This document shows positions 7,336 through 47,291 of a DNA stretch of 47,392 bases, one piece after another (position 1 is the first letter of the stretch; each line of letters begins with the position of its first letter). Source of the DNA: Minisyncoccota bacterium (GTDB lineage: Bacteria; Patescibacteriota; Minisyncoccia; JAHIHE01; JAGLIN01); assembly GCA_028690055.1 (NCBI GenBank), contig JAQVBZ010000012.1, positions 1-47,392 of the forward strand, in the 5' to 3' direction. Below the pieces are notes generated by a model. It searched no databases. It saw only the letters and a list, made by a program, of their open reading frames with translations, and was not told the origin of the DNA. A program made the position numbers and the translations under genes.

Positions 7336-7446
7336 GTGGAGTAGCAGACTTTAGTCTGCGCGGTTGTCCTAAGTTGCTAAACTCTCTGCAATCGCACGTT
7401 TTATTCGCATAGGATAGCCGCGCAGGTTAAAACCTGCTACTCCACT
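7336..7446. repeat. GGAGTAGC-family palindromic repeat, copy 1
   Basis: The ends are GTGGAGTAGCAG and CTGCTACTCCAC. Each arm holds its own small hairpin (GCAGACTTTAGTCTGC; GCAGGTTAAAACCTGC), followed or preceded by CGCGG/CCGCG and TTGTCC/GGATAG. Related copies are at 22952-23061 and 30744-30857. The rest of the 7249-7631 gap shows no gene. Confidence 0.85.
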
Positions 7447-22951: not shown

Positions 22952-23061
22952 ATGGAGTAGCAGACTTCAGTCTGCGCGGCTGTCCAATGCGGGGACAGTA
23001 AAATGCATGCGACGCATTTTCCGCTTGGGATAGCCGCGCGGGATAAATCCCGCTACTCCAT
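22952..23061. repeat. GGAGTAGC-family palindromic repeat, copy 2
   Basis: ATGGAGTAGCAG at the left, CGCTACTCCAT at the right, with inner GCAGACTTCAGTCTGC and GCGGGATAAATCCCGC hairpins. The arms vary in sequence while pairing is kept (AGACT/AGTCT against GGGAT/ATCCC), which indicates compensatory change. Confidence 0.85.
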
Positions 23062-40330: not shown

Positions 40331-41809
40331 TTAAACTCCCAAAATTTTTTCGTAGAGTGTATTTTCTCCTTTGAGGAGATACTCAAAGGCGAACAGCTGA
40401 TTCCATTTTTCTCGGTTTTCGGGTCTTTCGAAGATTTTAACGAGAATGCGGTTCCATTCTTCGATGGTTTCTTTGTTCGCCTCTAGCCGATCCGAAACAA
40501 CAAGCTTGCCATTGGCAATGATGTCTTGGGTGGAAATCGGCTTGCGGGTATTTCTTAGTGGCAGGAGCATTCTTTGGGCTTCGGCAATAGATGTCGGAGG
40601 ATTTTCTCGGAGCCTTTTTGCTTCCTCGCTCGGTTCAAAGACATTGAATGCGGCGAGCTGAACTATCCTGTATGCACCTTCTGTTCCCAGCCCATACGGT
40701 GCGCCGAGATGTCGCAGAAATTCTTTTACTTCGCCGGCTGCATAGCATCCGCACGACTCGTTTATCTCTTTAAGCATATTGTCGGGATAGACGGTTAATC
40801 CCTGCAGGACTTTGTTCATCGTTTTTATAGCGTGGATAGCGACATGGAAAAGGTCCGGCCAAGCAATCCGTTCGACCGACGATTGTTCGATAGCCCTTTC
40901 TTCCCATGTGACGACATTGTCCATAAGCATATTCATATAACCCTTTGCTGCACGGGCCATACCTTCTATCTTTTCACCTGAGATCGTATTTTTCTTGTGT
41001 GGCATTGCTGAAGAACCTTTTTGTTTTTTGCCGAACGGTTCTTGCAGGATAGTTATTCCGCTACGAGCACCGAGGCGGATATCGATGGCTATCTTGTTGA
41101 GCGATAGCACTATCTGGCATATTGCCTGGGCTAGCGGAGCGTAAAGCTCTCTGGGTAGAATCTGTGTAGCACCATAGAAAGGCTGGAACCCGAGGATGCG
41201 CAGGGCTTCTTCTTCTATCTCTGCGGTAATCCCTTGATAGTTACCGATGGCGCCGGAAAGCTTGGAGAACTTAAGATTTTCTTCGGTTCTCTCTAGATTT
41301 CTCAATCCTTCTCTAAGGATAACCAGCCATGTAAGACAGCGTTTACCGAAGGATTCTATCTCTGCCCATTGGCCGTGTGTTCTGGCGAGCATCACAGTAT
41401 ATCGATACTCGATAGACATCTCTTCAAGCCTTTTGATCAACGGCTTTAGCTCTTCCTTTAATAAGGAGACAGATTCCCGAAGTGTCGAAACGAAAGCCGA
41501 TTCTTCCGTATCATATGAAGTAAGACCGTCATGCCAATATTTTTGAAGTTCAATCGGCAGGAATCTCAGGCGCTCATCGATGAACGCATTGAGGTCGTGT
41601 TTAGTCTCCTCTTCCCGTTTTAACCACCAAGCGATATCGATTTCCTGATTTCCCAGTTTTTCGAATATGCTTGTAAAGATTTCCCTGTTAATAAGTCCGA
41701 GGTTAGCTCTTGCCTCAATTACGGCAAATTCGGTTTTCTGCCATAATTTCAGTTTGTTTTCGTTTGACCAAACCCTGCTTATCGTAGGATGCTCATATCT
41801 TGCGATAAT
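40331..41809 (-). CDS. purB: Adenylosuccinate lyase, probable AUU start
   Basis: A 492-aa member of the fumarase/aspartase superfamily. It makes AICAR from SAICAR and AMP from adenylosuccinate in purine synthesis. The signature is GSSAMPHKKNTI (flexible loop with the catalytic Ser). Other family segments are ARTHGQWAEIESFGKR and SKLSGAIGNYQG. The usual PurB N-terminus (M-I-x-RY) is found as I-I-A-RYEHPTISRVWSNENK, with ATT where Met should be. AGGAGG lies exactly 7 nt before that ATT (41809). No ATG, GTG or TTG fits; a TTG at 41887 adds 26 non-homologous residues. A stem-loop covers the start of the transcript. No other purine genes are adjacent. Confidence 0.93.
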   Translation of the reverse strand: MIARYEHPTISRVWSNENKLKLWQKTEFAVIEARANLGLINREIFTSIFEKLGNQEIDIAWWLKREEETKHDLNAFIDERLRFLPIELQKYWHDGLTSYDTEESAFVSTLRESVSLLKEELKPLIKRLEEMSIEYRYTVMLARTHGQWAEIESFGKRCLTWLVILREGLRNLERTEENLKFSKLSGAIGNYQGITAEIEEEALRILGFQPFYGATQILPRELYAPLAQAICQIVLSLNKIAIDIRLGARSGITILQEPFGKKQKGSSAMPHKKNTISGEKIEGMARAAKGYMNMLMDNVVTWEERAIEQSSVERIAWPDLFHVAIHAIKTMNKVLQGLTVYPDNMLKEINESCGCYAAGEVKEFLRHLGAPYGLGTEGAYRIVQLAAFNVFEPSEEAKRLRENPPTSIAEAQRMLLPLRNTRKPISTQDIIANGKLVVSDRLEANKETIEEWNRILVKIFERPENREKWNQLFAFEYLLKGENTLYEKILGV

Positions 41810-41830
41810 AATTTTCCCTCCTATATAAGT

Positions 41831-41858
41831 TATCGATGGCTGTAAAAAACCATCGATA
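41831..41858 (-). promoter_or_regulatory. Stem-loop at the purB transcription start
   Basis: TATCGATGG / CCATCGATA perfect 9-bp inverted repeat with a 10-nt loop. It begins just after the -10 and ends 9 nt before AGGAGG. It could be an operator or an mRNA 5' hairpin. Confidence 0.7.
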
Positions 41859-41859
41859 T

Positions 41860-41887
41860 ATATTACATGATGACTATTATAAGTCAA
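41860..41887 (-). promoter_or_regulatory. purB promoter
   Basis: On the minus strand TTGACT, 16 nt, TAATAT. The -35 lies only 14 bp from the 17-bp tRNA-like repeat that ends the integrated element, so the element borders but spares it. Confidence 0.6.
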
Positions 41888-41900
41888 ACTTTTTTATTTA

Positions 41901-41960
41901 GCGGAGAGGGCGAGATTTACCCATCCGCTTTGCTACTGGGCATAAACTTCTCATCTCGCC
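41901..41960. repeat. Left attachment-like site with nested inverted repeat
   Basis: The tRNA-like 17-mer overlaps a larger inverted repeat: GGCGAGAT (41909-41916) with ATCTCGCC (41953-41960), and inside it CCCA (41920-41923) with TGGG (41937-41940). Imperfect palindromes of this size are the usual form of serine integrase att sites. The remaining 41961-42156 has no convincing gene. Confidence 0.6.
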
Positions 41961-42156
41961 AAATTGCGGGCTATTCGAGTTAAGTACCCGTAAGATATAA
42001 TCAGTGTAAGGCTTTTTAGGTGGTTTGGTTAGAAGGGGTTTTGAGGTACTCGGGTCGGGGTCAGAAAATAGAAAATGAGACAAATGAGACACTATAAAAA
42101 GAATTTTAAAATATGTCTAGTTTGCCTATTGTTTGCTGTAGTTAGCTAAAATATAG

Positions 42157-42185
42157 ATAAGACACAAAAAAGTTGTGTCTTATTT
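42157..42185. terminator. Terminator-like hairpin upstream of the recombinase
   Basis: AAGACACAA / TTGTGTCTT perfect 9-bp stem with T and A tracts; it would shield the recombinase gene from outside transcription. Confidence 0.7.
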
Positions 42186-42279
42186 GACTTTGTGGCGATT
42201 ATAGCGTCTTATATTAATTTGCTGGACTAAGTGAACGAGTCGCGTCATTAATGTTGTTGTAATAAGATAAAAACAAAGC

Positions 42280-43602
42280 ATGGAATTGCAACATCAAAAA
42301 ATGTCACAAGAAAAACAAAGCGTATTATCTCCGGTAAAATATTGCCTTTATGCTCGGAAGTCTACCGAGTCCGAAGAGAGGCAGGTCCTTTCCATAGACA
42401 GCCAAATTAAAGAAATGCTGGATCTGGCAGAAAGAGAAAATCTCAATATCGTATCAATCAAACGAGAATCTCACAGCGCAAAAGAAACTGGAACAAGACC
42501 GATTTTCAATGAAATTATTTCTGAGATTCAGGAGCAGAAGTTTGACGGCATCCTGACTTGGGCGCCGGATAGAATTTCCCGAAATGCGGGAGATCTCGGA
42601 AAAATTGTCGATCTTATGGACGGAGGATTTTTAAAAGAGATAAGAACTTACGGACAAAAATTTTCCAATTCTCCGAATGAAAAATTCTTGCTTATGATAT
42701 TAGGCTCGCAAGCAAAACTTGAAAATGATAATCGTGGTATTAATGTGAAACGGGGACTCAGGGCAAGATGCGAAATGGGCTTATGGCCGACTATCGCTCC
42801 CTTGGGATATCTCAACCAAAAACATATGGACAAGAAATGCCAGATAATCATTGATCCGCAAAGAGCGCCTGTTATCAAGAAGATATTTGAAAAAGCGGCA
42901 TACGAGCATTATTCAGGAAGAAAAATCTACCATTGGCTGAGATTTGATTTGAACTTTTACACTAGAGGCAATAAACCTTTGACGCTCGCTGGAGTGTATC
43001 GAGTGCTGGATAATCCGCTCTATTATGGAGTGTTTGAATATCCTGCCAAAAGTGATAATTGGTATTCCGGAAAGCATGAGCCTATTATTACGCAAGAACT
43101 TTTTGAAAAAGCTCAAGCCTGGCTCAAAAGAGACAAAATCGTGAGAGAGAATAAAGAGTTTGCTTTTACCAAACTTATAACTTGCGGACTATGTGGTTCG
43201 GGAATATCGGCTGAAGAAAAATATAAACAGCTAAAAGATGGAACTGCTGCACACTATGTTTATTATGGATGCAGCCGCGCTAAAGACAGACATTGTAAAA
43301 ATAAATATATAAGAGAAGAAGAATTAATTACAGGGCTACTGAAAATAATGGATAAAGTTGATATCAGTGAACTTGGTATGAAAACAAGACTGGAGATGGA
43401 AGTTGAAAGGTTCAATAAATTTCAAAATATGGTCTTTGGAGAAAAACCAAACAACAAAAAACAAAAGCCCGCAGTTGATATGCGGGTTTATGCTAAATAT
43501 GTACTTAAAGAAGGAAGCGCGACGGAGAAGCGAGAATTGCTGGCTAATTTGAGAAGCAGGATTTTGTTGCGGGACAAGAACTTAATGCTAGTCGATAGCT
43601 AA
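42280..43602 (+). CDS. Large serine recombinase (integrase)
   Basis: A 440-aa site-specific recombinase. The resolvase domain has the catalytic Ser28 in YARKSTESEERQVLSIDSQ and the Arg/Asp core in WAPDRISRNAGDL. The recombinase domain runs about residues 165-275 (GYLNQK, then VYRVLDNPLYYGVFEY). The zinc ribbon has CGLCGSG (about 303-309) and YGCSRAKDRHC (about 328-338). A coiled-coil region follows. This is the usual integrase type in CPR genomes. It lies next to the left end of the element, as integrases do. It overlaps the convergent gene at 43599 by 4 bp. ATG at 42280 or M8 at 42301; no SD. Confidence 0.95.
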   Translation: MELQHQKMSQEKQSVLSPVKYCLYARKSTESEERQVLSIDSQIKEMLDLAERENLNIVSIKRESHSAKETGTRPIFNEIISEIQEQKFDGILTWAPDRISRNAGDLGKIVDLMDGGFLKEIRTYGQKFSNSPNEKFLLMILGSQAKLENDNRGINVKRGLRARCEMGLWPTIAPLGYLNQKHMDKKCQIIIDPQRAPVIKKIFEKAAYEHYSGRKIYHWLRFDLNFYTRGNKPLTLAGVYRVLDNPLYYGVFEYPAKSDNWYSGKHEPIITQELFEKAQAWLKRDKIVRENKEFAFTKLITCGLCGSGISAEEKYKQLKDGTAAHYVYYGCSRAKDRHCKNKYIREEELITGLLKIMDKVDISELGMKTRLEMEVERFNKFQNMVFGEKPNNKKQKPAVDMRVYAKYVLKEGSATEKRELLANLRSRILLRDKNLMLVDS

Positions 43603-44306
43603 TTTTTTTCTGCAATAAATAACTTATCCAATGATTCTAAGGCTGAAACGCAAGGGTTGGACAATTCATAGTCAAACCAAATGTAGCAATCTATCCTTAA
43701 TATTTTGATAATCTGACCTAGTTTAGCAATCCAATCTCTTTCTAACTTCAAATTTGCCACTCCGCCGGGTTCCTTAAGCAGTTTATTTTTATGAGCAACT
43801 GATTGATGTCTAATCTTATGAAAATTCTGTCCTTCAAAATGTTTTTTTAACTCCTTTAGATCGGTTAGTCCACTTAAACTTCTTTTCTTCTTCCTAATAT
43901 CAGCCATTTTATCTCCAATATAAGAATTGTCTTCCTCAGTTCCAAAATCAAATTTATAGTAATCAGGAGTTGGATAATTCTTTTCAAGAAAATCCATAAA
44001 TGCTTGGACTAGATCTTCTTTAATCTCTGGTATGGAAGCTTTCTCTTTTTCTATAATTTTTTCAAGTATAGGTTTGATTGTCAGCTCTTCTTGTTTTTTT
44101 GAGCAAATCAATGTATGTAATATTTCAATGGATGCATAAAAACTGTTGTTGGCAGATAAAATGGAAAAATCATATCCTAATAATTCGTTTTCAGGTAATT
44201 TACTGTATATTTTTTCGCATACTAGAAAATTGATATCTGCGAGATAAACAAGTTTAACTATTTTATCAATATATTGCTCGTCTGATAGCTCCATTTGTTT
44301 TTTCAT
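43599..44306 (-). CDS. AbiU2/HEPN-like protein (element cargo)
   Basis: A 235-aa all-helical protein. Residues 160-185 contain FHKIRHQSVAHKNKLL, in which RHQSVAH is an R-x5-H motif of the HEPN type, in a context (R-x-x-HxxVAHKN) seen in AbiU2-like proteins. HEPN proteins of this sort often act as RNase toxins in abortive infection. No antitoxin nucleotidyltransferase is adjacent. It is convergent with the recombinase. The assignment is by motif and context; AbiU2 membership needs a profile search. No SD. Confidence 0.7.
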   Translation of the reverse strand: MKKQMELSDEQYIDKIVKLVYLADINFLVCEKIYSKLPENELLGYDFSILSANNSFYASIEILHTLICSKKQEELTIKPILEKIIEKEKASIPEIKEDLVQAFMDFLEKNYPTPDYYKFDFGTEEDNSYIGDKMADIRKKKRSLSGLTDLKELKKHFEGQNFHKIRHQSVAHKNKLLKEPGGVANLKLERDWIAKLGQIIKILRIDCYIWFDYELSNPCVSALESLDKLFIAEKN

Positions 44307-44491
44307 TTGATTTTTTGTTATAAATCTAACATTGTCCTTATAAGATAAACTCCTTCATTTTCTTTGAAGCTATATTTTAAGTTCAGCGCTTTTATAGCCA
44401 TTTTTATTCTCTTTTAGGGTTTAATACCCCCCGCATCTCTGCTGCGAGAAGGCTTCATTAGTCATTAAAATGTTGTCATTTTCATTCTGAT

Positions 44492-44989
44492 TTATCGAGT
44501 TCGTTTGGATTCCACTTGATAAGCAGGATATAAAAAATAAGATGAAATATAGAAAGATAAGAGTGCTCCTAATATCATTGTAGGATCAACAAGTAATGTA
44601 ATTATTATATTCAGATATATTATGGCCAATGCCACTATTACTCCCGTCTTAGGTTTCTTATATATTAGTATACTTATAATAATTCCCAAGAATAATAAAA
44701 GCCAAATGATATTATCGTTTATTGTACCGTTACTTTCACTTTGACTAATAAAAGAACCTAGCCCAAAAAGATAAAATATAATATAGCCAAGACAAGCCCT
44801 ACCTCGTGCCGAGGAGAGTATATTCAACTTGTCATACTGTTCAATCTGATATCTTAATTTCTTATCTTCAATTGCGAAAAATGCAAAAAAGCCTTTATTA
44901 TTTTTCTTATTGTTTAACATGCTTTGACAATGTTTGCATTTGATTGCTTCTTCTTGGATTTGCTCTGCACAAAAAGGACATATTTTCAT
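44492..44989 (-). CDS. Zinc-ribbon membrane protein (element cargo)
   Basis: A 165-aa protein. The N-terminus is a double CxxC zinc ribbon (KICPFCAEQIQEEAIKCKHC). A basic linker follows, then about four membrane helices (IIFYLFGLGSFIS; IIWLLLFLGIIISILIY; VIVALAIIYLNIIITLLV; a final one). Such zinc-ribbon plus membrane proteins are common and mostly uncharacterised. It belongs to the AT-rich minus-strand block of the integrated element. Confidence 0.8.
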   Translation of the reverse strand: MKICPFCAEQIQEEAIKCKHCQSMLNNKKNNKGFFAFFAIEDKKLRYQIEQYDKLNILSSARGRACLGYIIFYLFGLGSFISQSESNGTINDNIIWLLLFLGIIISILIYKKPKTGVIVALAIIYLNIIITLLVDPTMILGALLSFYISSYFLYPAYQVESKRTR

Positions 44990-45100
44990 AAATTTAGAAT
45001 TGATGGATTTTATAAATTACACGATAGAATTGCTAAGATGCAAAAATACCTTTTGTGAGGATTTGTTTCTTTTGTTTGAGATGGGGCCCTTGCAAAAAGT

Positions 45101-45574
45101 TTAGTGCTGAATAAAAAAAGCAATAAAAATAATCGCTAATACTATCCATATCGTTAACCCAGCTAGAGTATTCCAAAAAGATGATTCTTGATTTTTAATT
45201 GCTTTTCGAATCAAATCTTTTGGTACGGGATAAGGCACTCCCAACTTTTTGGGGAGTACACGGATTTCCCAATATAGATCCGGAATTCTACTTGCCATGA
45301 CAAGAATGAAAGCAATCAAAAATAGAATTCCCCAGTAGCTATATACATAATAACAAATCGCTATTGTGATAATGCTCGATAGAATAGCAACTACAATGCC
45401 AGAACTATTCCATTTTTTGACTTCATTCTTCAAATAATCTTGATATTCGTTTGGGTCTAATGGTTTTTCAAGTAAACCCCTGCCGATGGATCCAACAAGA
45501 TTTGTGCCCGCGTAAACAATGATTAACCATGCAACTATTGCTTTTATGATTGACCAGATGAGGAGTGCTATCAT
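45101..45574 (-). CDS. Membrane protein (157 aa, element cargo)
   Basis: About four membrane helices: residues 1-25, 60-78, 80-97 and 135-155. A cytosolic loop of about 35 residues lies between the first and second (LLEKPLDPNEYQDYLKNEV), and an amphipathic stretch (IRVLPKKLGVPYPVPKDLIRK) before the last. No family recognised. No SD. The 43599-46314 genes all run leftward with gaps of 70-190 bp, so an operon is possible. Confidence 0.75.
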   Translation of the reverse strand: MIALLIWSIIKAIVAWLIIVYAGTNLVGSIGRGLLEKPLDPNEYQDYLKNEVKKWNSSGIVVAILSSIITIAICYYVYSYWGILFLIAFILVMASRIPDLYWEIRVLPKKLGVPYPVPKDLIRKAIKNQESSFWNTLAGLTIWIVLAIIFIAFFIQH

Positions 45575-45640
45575 TTCATTAAATTTAAAAATTTATTTAT
45601 CTTCTATCAAAATATTCAATCTATTATTTTTGTCATCAAA

Positions 45641-45943
45641 TTACGTGTTATTTCTATCGCCTAAAGACTCAAATTCACTATTTGCGATATTGCTATCTTC
45701 TCCTTTATCTATTAAACCTGCATCTGGACCTTTCCCGATTACACGATTAAGTTGAGCATGTTTTCCTTCCAGTAATATGCCGGCCTTTCTTTTATCTCCA
45801 TTGTTTTTAGGTTTTTCAAAAATCCATTTTAAAAAACCGGTTGTCCAACCGATAAAAGCAAGGATGATTGTAATAATAATACCTACAATCTCTACGAAAC
45901 CTGAATTTTGATTTGCCCAGTATCTAATAGCTTCTATATCCAT
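45641..45943 (-). CDS. Single-helix membrane protein (100 aa, element cargo)
   Basis: One membrane helix (residues 16-40, GFVEIVGIIITIILAFIGWT) is followed by a basic stretch (KWIFEKPKNNGDKRK) and a hydrophilic tail with Asn/Asp/Ser. The end (ESLGDRNNT) looks arbitrary, so truncation is possible. No family recognised. It is a member of the leftward block. Confidence 0.6.
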   Translation of the reverse strand: MDIEAIRYWANQNSGFVEIVGIIITIILAFIGWTTGFLKWIFEKPKNNGDKRKAGILLEGKHAQLNRVIGKGPDAGLIDKGEDSNIANSEFESLGDRNNT

Positions 45944-46053
45944 ATCACTCGGAATGACTTTTTATTATCTATATTTTATGCCTTTTATGCAAATTTGTAA
46001 AAAAGAATTTTGACAATAAGTAAGAAGATTTCCGTCTGACTATATTATTTGAT

Positions 46054-46314
46054 CTACTCTGAGCTTTTTTCTTCTGCCGGATATAATTTATGCAATCCTA
46101 GTCCGATATACCATGAAACTATGCCATAGAAGATTAAGTTGGCACATTCAGAGATAGAGAATTTTTCTCCTGTAAATACGCCATATATTAGGAATACAAA
46201 AACAGCCCCCGGCAGGAGTATTAGAATCATTGCAAACAGACTGACTGCTATTTGAGCAATATTTTGACCAAGCTCTTCCAATGCCTGATTAAGTTTATAA
46301 AGCGGATTGTTCAT
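46054..46314 (-). CDS. Small two-helix membrane protein (86 aa, element cargo)
   Basis: Two membrane helices (SLFAMILILLPGAVFVFLIYG; LIFYGIVSWYIGLGLH) lie between a helical N-terminus (LYKLNQALEELGQNIAQIAV) and a short acidic tail. No family recognised. It is the first gene of the leftward block, starting 45 bp from the 3' end of tRNA-Ser. Confidence 0.65.
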   Translation of the reverse strand: MNNPLYKLNQALEELGQNIAQIAVSLFAMILILLPGAVFVFLIYGVFTGEKFSISECANLIFYGIVSWYIGLGLHKLYPAEEKSSE

Positions 46315-46359
46315 ATTTTCGTATACTTTATGAGTCTATCCGATACTTTATTGTAAATG

Positions 46360-46446
46360 CGGAGAGGGCGAGATTCGAACTCGCGGGACCCGTGAAGGTC
46401 CTCCGGTTTTCAAGACCGGTACATTAAACCGCTCTGTCACCTCTCC
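46360..46446 (-). tRNA. tRNA-Ser (anticodon UGA)
   Basis: 87 nt. The acceptor stem is GGAGAGG with CCTCTCC and discriminator G. The anticodon loop is CTTGAAA. The long variable arm GGACC-TTCAC-GGGTCC identifies serine. The T-loop GTTCGAATC is normal. CCA is not encoded. Its last 17 nt form the right end of the integrated element. Confidence 0.95.
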
Positions 46447-47199: not shown

Positions 47200-47286
47200 G
47201 GAGAGGTGGCTGAGCGGCTGAAAGCACCACACTGCTAATGTGGGAAGGGGTAAAACCCTTCGCGGGTTCGAATCCCGCCCTCTCCG
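47200..47286 (+). tRNA. tRNA-Ser (anticodon GCU)
   Basis: 87 nt. The acceptor is GGAGAGG/CCTCTCC with discriminator G. The anticodon loop is CTGCTAA. The variable arm is GAAGGG-GTAAAA-CCCTTC and the T-loop GTTCGAATC. CCA is not encoded. Its 3' end differs from the 17-bp element repeat by one base (C for T in AATCCCGCC). Confidence 0.95.
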
Positions 47287-47291
47287 CATCA

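Follow-up and report, generated by a model that had tools for sequence, protein, structure and literature searches.

A large serine recombinase element beside tRNA-Ser(UGA) in a Minisyncoccota bacterium, and a Patescibacteria family of recombinases associated with tRNA 3' ends

Organisation of the locus

We analysed a 47,392-nucleotide stretch of DNA from a Minisyncoccota bacterium (GenBank assembly GCA_028690055.1, contig JAQVBZ010000012.1, positions 1 to 47,392), hereafter the window, in which a large serine recombinase (LSR) gene lies close to the 3' end of a tRNA-Ser(UGA) gene. The comparisons presented here point to an integrative element of ~ 4.4 kb, located at about 41966-46362, with ends sharing TGCGG. 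We propose, with a probability of roughly 0.87 for the explanation as a whole, that it was moved by its LSR, that this LSR belongs to a Patescibacteria family inserting at tRNA 3' ends, and that a 17-bp repeat present at the locus is separate and older. The features of the locus, by position in the window, are as follows.

40331-41887, reverse strand: purB-like adenylosuccinate lyase gene, left chromosomal flank (Pfam Lyase_1, 2e-30; NCBIfam TIGR00928 purB, 326 bits, about at the cut-off)
41901-41965, no strand assigned: small tRNA-linked repeat unit (96% identical tandem unit beside tRNA-Ser(UGA) of genome G005)
41965-41969, forward strand: putative core TGCGG of the distal junction, at which the LSR element starts on the left (alignment with G005 stops after GCGG; core as in G460/G480)
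41966-42012, forward strand: P2 end GCGGGCTATTCGAGTTAAGTACCCGTAAGATATAATCAGTGTAAGG (matches P2 of L005, L146, L259, L260, L261 and the G403 array)
42280-43602, forward strand: LSR gene, 440 aa, catalytic motif YARKS (Pfam PF00239/PF07508/PF13408)
43599-44306, reverse strand: cargo open reading frame (ORF), 235 aa, no family above cut-off
44492-44989, reverse strand: cargo ORF, 165 aa, weak zinc-ribbon match and hydrophobic segments
45101-45574, reverse strand: cargo ORF, 157 aa, hydrophobic
45641-45943, reverse strand: cargo ORF, 100 aa, N-terminal hydrophobic segment
46054-46314, reverse strand: cargo ORF, 86 aa, hydrophobic
46333-46358, forward strand: P1 end AGTCTATCCGATACTTTATTGTAAAT, immediately outside the tRNA 3' end (conserved in relatives; sole match in its own genome)
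46358-46362, forward strand: putative core TGCGG of the proximal junction, situated where the tRNA gene ends (3')
46359-46446, reverse strand: tRNA-Ser(UGA), the presumed target gene, intact
47200-47287, forward strand: tRNA-Ser(GCU), unoccupied neighbour, origin of a 16/17 match to the 17-mer

A preliminary description of this DNA had reported a 17-mer, GCGGAGAGGGCGAGATT, present twice, and had taken the two copies as the bounds of an LSR island. Both copies are exact (41901-41917 and 46359-46375, for a chance expectation of 0.14 matches within 3 mismatches), although the second starts at 46359 and not, as given there, at 46360. As had been stated, this copy forms the 3' end of tRNA-Ser(UGA), a gene that lies on the minus strand. 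A third match of 16/17, at 47271-47287, corresponds to the 3' end of tRNA-Ser(GCU). The DNA between the two exact copies is AT-rich (30-38% GC) and carries an intact LSR with Resolvase, Recombinase and Zn_ribbon domains in a Pfam scan, also in agreement with the earlier account. None of the five cargo ORFs matched a family above cut-off, and a search of the cargo for known defence families found none. Furthermore, no phage genes were recognised in the element and a tyrosine integrase domain was absent from its Pfam-scanned ORFs.

A recombinase family associated with tRNA genes

Contigs of bacterial genomes, almost all of them under titles of candidate phyla radiation (CPR)/Patescibacteria or unnamed bacteria, yielded sixteen close homologues of the window LSR (66-80% identity), and in 14 of them a tRNA-Ser gene, of any anticodon, lies downstream on the opposite strand. 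A homologue (E <= 1e-120) is present in 52 of the 380 genomes sampled from the phylum. The YxRxS catalytic motif is present in all 86 distinct LSRs, and the nearest downstream tRNA is on the opposite strand in every one of the 69 cases with a tRNA in the fetched DNA. More distant members adjoin tRNA-Gln, Arg, Asn, Trp, Glu, Gly, Asp, Leu, Lys, Ala or Thr genes. Target labels cluster on the LSR tree, as none of 200 shuffles gave a value as low, and the smallest supported set holding the window LSR has 23 members, with 18 at tRNA-Ser, one at a tRNA-Asp whose 3' end also reads GCGG, and four without a tRNA in reach. The tRNA association of this family is genuine and general, extending over tens of genomes, and the proposal of an LSR island at a tRNA-Ser 3' end, unusual for LSRs and defining a distinct CPR family, holds up in this respect.

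Other observations concern the LSR genes themselves. A distant LSR, L046 (G000:C32:1-8000), about 33% identical with a 515-aa frame, is followed after 126 bp by a tRNA (Trp) gene of the opposite strand, which suggests that the tRNA habit may extend beyond this family. Downstream of a second close LSR of the same genome (62%), L045 (G000:C11:50000-64866), the contig ends after 4.6 kb, and no tRNA lies in between. Just before the LSR start codon, a conserved stretch, GGGACGCTCTGGACTCC...GCGTCATT, is found for example in L006, L008, L014 and L019; it has a GACGC/GCGTC inverted repeat and is possibly an operator or a leader.

Element ends, empty sites and recent movement

The P1 arm directly outside the tRNA is conserved and consists of GGGTC, about 20 bases and then (T)GCGG. 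At the orthologous tRNA-Ser(UGA) locus next to ruvX, compared in 30 genomes of one genus, it is present at 6 sites, of which three were recognised by pattern (G481, G467, G403) and three by eye (G480, G427, G451), and is not seen at the others. In G481, a 2.06-kb LSR-less cassette stands between the tRNA and a gene whose distance to it is 54-571 bp in G456, G457, G460 and G430.

An exact empty site was found at tRNA-Ser(GGA) of G460, where the sequence reads ...CCCTTTTCGAAAAATT-GCGG-tRNA. The occupied site of G480 has the same flank up to GCGG, followed by element DNA, and at the other end the element runs to TGCGG, followed by the tRNA, so that the block common to the empty and the occupied site is only (T)GCGG. 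Moreover, a ~ 17-kb element is nearly identical in G480 and G403, with one 2-kb stretch at 94.6% and most others at 99.9-100%, and lies at different tRNA-Ser genes. In G403 it is found within an array, and this copy again ends at TGCGG, next to which stands an element instead of a tRNA. The two genomes are of two species, with host DNA 70.6% identical and a flank at 85%, and the element they have in common is the product of recent horizontal movement, its boundaries being exact. That the LSR elements are inactive relics, marking tRNA loci by old vertical inheritance, would explain why some LSR copies have in-frame stops and why some LSRs are fragments, but such a view is very hard to reconcile with the near identity of the 17-kb element in two species that share only about 71% identity in host DNA, or with the different elements found at the same tRNA-Ser(GGA) in G480 and G435 when others in the genus are empty, and we consider it very unlikely.

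The start of the window P2 end, GCGGGCTATTCGAGTTAAGTACCCGTAAG, matches the left ends of L005 (GCGGGCATCTCGAGATAAGTACCCC), L146, L259, L260, L261 and the G403 array. A second P2 class, GCGG-N9-GATTCGAAC-TAAGTGGGTCGC, resembles the tRNA-Ser 3' end itself. Since the window P2 end begins where the alignment with G005 breaks (see below), the LSR element is placed at about 41966-46362, and its left end is at 41965-41969, 65 bp inward of the 17-mer that the preliminary description had given as its bound. A crossover inside the T loop was also considered and was ruled out by L178, where the nine bases after GCGG differ between the distal end and the tRNA, which is still called intact.

The small repeat unit carrying the 17-mer

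The distal 17-mer (41901-41917) opens a unit, 41901-41965, in which the copy of the tRNA-Ser(UGA) 3' end is joined to a hairpin core and an inverse T-stem; folding of the unit as RNA on the tRNA strand gives z = -2.1. In G005, which is of the same family but another genus, the tRNA-Ser(UGA) is 98% identical to that of the window and has the same tRNA-Ser(GCU) neighbour. Beside it, at a locus without LSR, a ~ 65-bp unit is found twice in tandem, each copy starting with the 17-mer. The first of these is 96% identical to window 41901-41969, and the alignment stops directly after GCGG at 41969, where the P2 end starts.

Copies of the unit are also found beside tRNA-Ser(CGA), Tyr, Val and Gln genes in G000 and G005 (units catalogued: window 41901-41965; L263, G005:C17; L297-L307). 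Each starts with the last 14-19 bases of the adjoining tRNA itself, ending in the T loop, and continues with the conserved hairpin core ACCCATyCrCTnnGCTACTGGGCATAAACTTC and then the inverse T stem. The units have one orientation wherever a tRNA is in reach and are sometimes in tandem at ~ 115-118 bp. A palindromic repeat, GGAGTAGCAGACTTnAGTCTGCGCGG, occurs at window 7338-7444 and 22954-22995, and also beside tRNA-Ser genes of G005.

Because G005 has the unit without an LSR and other units copy their own tRNA ends, the distal 17-mer marks a small tRNA-linked repeat and not an attachment site of the LSR. These units look like mini-elements with tyrosine-integrase-style tRNA repeats, and the remark in the preliminary description that long tRNA-derived blocks are the mark of tyrosine integrases may well apply to them. 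Long tRNA-end repeats were also searched for upstream of each LSR, and none comparable was found outside the window, bar a duplicated P1 arm in L123, which was the first hint that the 17-mer is peculiar to the window locus. Our first reading of the 17-mer, as a tRNA-mimicking P2 end, was overturned by G005 and by the P2 consensus.

The original interpretation, in which the 17-mers are attL and attR of an LSR element that evolved a long tRNA-derived identity block, draws on the exact 17-bp direct repeat around the LSR and its cargo. However, other elements have no comparable repeat apart from L123, a P2 end of conserved sequence stands 65 bp inward of the 17-mer, and exact LSR junctions mapped elsewhere have only TGCGG in common; moreover, the preliminary description had itself named a 17-mer in places without an LSR as contrary evidence, and this is what the G005 locus displays. 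We thus judge it highly improbable that the 17-bp block is the attachment site. Least probable of all is an insertion at tRNA-Ser by a tyrosine integrase or by some unrelated route, with the LSR as a passenger playing no role in tRNA targeting. Although long repeats of a tRNA 3' end typically go with tyrosine integrases and the 17-mer unit could be a leftover of such a system, Pfam finds no tyrosine integrase among the ORFs of the element. Furthermore, the LSR alone is what tens of genomes have in common, and the tRNA position, the orientation and the P1 arm are conserved among them.

Cassette arrays and LSR-less cassettes

Elements with these ends are also found stacked, some of the cassettes having no recombinase (L168, L178, L259, L260, L261 and the G403 array). 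At L168 (G431:C10), four modules stand in a row at one tRNA-Ser with a P1-P2 junction between each: an LSR accompanied by a methylase of restriction type and by an AAA ATPase; an ABC transporter; Fic with a ResIII/DEAD helicase; and a methyltransferase. A Fic cassette is found alone at tRNA-Ser(UGA) in G481. The LSR-less cassettes measure 0.64-3.8 kb and have the same ends as the LSR elements, and some hold a single gene, such as a 777 bp methyltransferase cassette (L259, G480) and one of about 640 bp with AAA_33 (G427). G451 carries a trypsin-like cassette, again with the same ends; in this genome, no LSR of the family passed the threshold. In one array junction, attC-like folding was looked for and was no better than in shuffles (z = 0.88).

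Proposed mechanism

Comparison of the sites places the crossover within the 4-5 bp core (T)GCGG, where the tRNA gene ends. By strand exchange P1 is joined to the tRNA and P2 to the former downstream flank, hence the tRNA remains whole and only its trailer is replaced. We infer excision, circular forms and the exact two crossover bases. The 3' end of the tRNA together with its T arm is probably recognised by the LSR as a single attB half-site, which would allow any tRNA-Ser isoacceptor to serve. The P1-tRNA junction may be reusable, new elements entering next to the tRNA as arrays grow, in this order, and the LSR-less cassettes with the same ends may be moved in trans. In the window, the small 17-mer unit would already have been present beside the tRNA when the LSR element landed between the two.

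Several points weigh against this explanation. Seventeen of the 86 LSRs have no tRNA in the fetched DNA, several of them being at contig ends or members of arrays, and L009 and L011 are at non-tRNA sites. These two sites carry GCGG and TTCGAAC, which fits recognition of a tRNA end and T arm by the LSR. Left ends were mapped for a minority of elements only, and conservation is not obvious in the B1 half, an unusual trait in the attB of an LSR. Finally, the locus without insert, which the preliminary description had suggested seeking in relatives, was obtained in part: the G005 unit adjoins tRNA-Ser(UGA) with no LSR, but this empty site comes from another genus only and purB was not found there. 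The purB relatives had no tRNA-Ser neighbour, hence the left flank gives no test by that route.

Comparison with known systems

The domain architecture (Resolvase N-terminal, Recombinase and zinc-ribbon domains, with the catalytic serine motif) and the short attP/attB core, which reads (T)GCGG both in the window and in G460/G480, are those of an LSR. Phage and conjugative LSRs such as SPbeta YokA/YotN have the same architecture, and the closest solved structure is the SPbeta recombinase (E about 1e-9). However, the best phage-collection matches are 24-28% identical, the best phage and plasmid matches among those listed are below 30%, and the LSRs described here form a Patescibacteria family with its own tRNA targets and no recognised phage genes.

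The staphylococcal cassette chromosome (SCC) inserts at the 3' end of rlmH, which is kept intact, stacks, and has cassettes without recombinase. The elements described here share with SCC/SCCmec and its Ccr a large serine recombinase, for which CcrB is the nearest curated model, a conserved gene as target, which is entered at its 3' end and left intact, and stacked elements including cassettes without their own recombinase. In contrast, the score against the nearest NCBIfam model, CcrB, is 119.7 bits for a cut-off of 900, the targets are tRNA genes and not rlmH, each element has one recombinase gene, cassettes go down to one gene and the hosts differ. By analogy, the Patescibacteria element would work like SCC/ccr cassettes with a tRNA gene replacing rlmH, and it shares the stacked cassettes but neither the Ccr model score nor the rlmH target.

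With tyrosine-integrase tRNA islands and prophages the elements have in common insertion at the tRNA 3' end, the intact tRNA and a position on its 3' side. Such integrases use 16 tRNA/tmRNA attB sites in Mycobacterium abscessus (PMC10654092). Here, however, the recombinase is a serine recombinase, no tyrosine integrase gene was found among the Pfam-scanned ORFs, and the shared block is terminal and of 4-5 bp, not a long one into the T arm; the element ends share TGCGG only, the 17-mer coming from another unit. Integrons, for their part, resemble these loci by arrays of small cassettes at a fixed site, apparent addition beside it and cassettes without recombinase. They differ by their tyrosine recombinase IntI, in whose place an LSR is found here, by the recombinase carried on some cassettes and the tRNA gene as anchor, and the array junction folded was not attC-like. 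A broader proposal would see in these elements a serine-recombinase counterpart of integrons across Patescibacteria: LSRs of one family would dock permanently at tRNA 3' ends, read through the T arm at any isoacceptor, and cassettes of few or single genes, including recombinase-less ones mobilised in trans, would be added beside the tRNA and build ordered arrays; we give it an even chance.

Significance

LSRs usually use non-tRNA sites, and it is tyrosine integrases that favour tRNA genes (for examples, see PMC10654092). In the literature on LSRs at tRNA genes, on Ccr with tRNA genes and on Patescibacteria recombinases, with subscription papers thinly covered, this LSR family was not found described. 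A whole family directed to the 3' ends of tRNA genes, in which close relatives occupy different isoacceptors and isotypes, offers a natural series for the study of LSR target choice, and would supply many LSRs with predictable, gene-sparing target sites. For the tiny genomes of Patescibacteria, it represents a route of gene exchange, whose cargo includes restriction-modification, Fic, transporter and methyltransferase cassettes.

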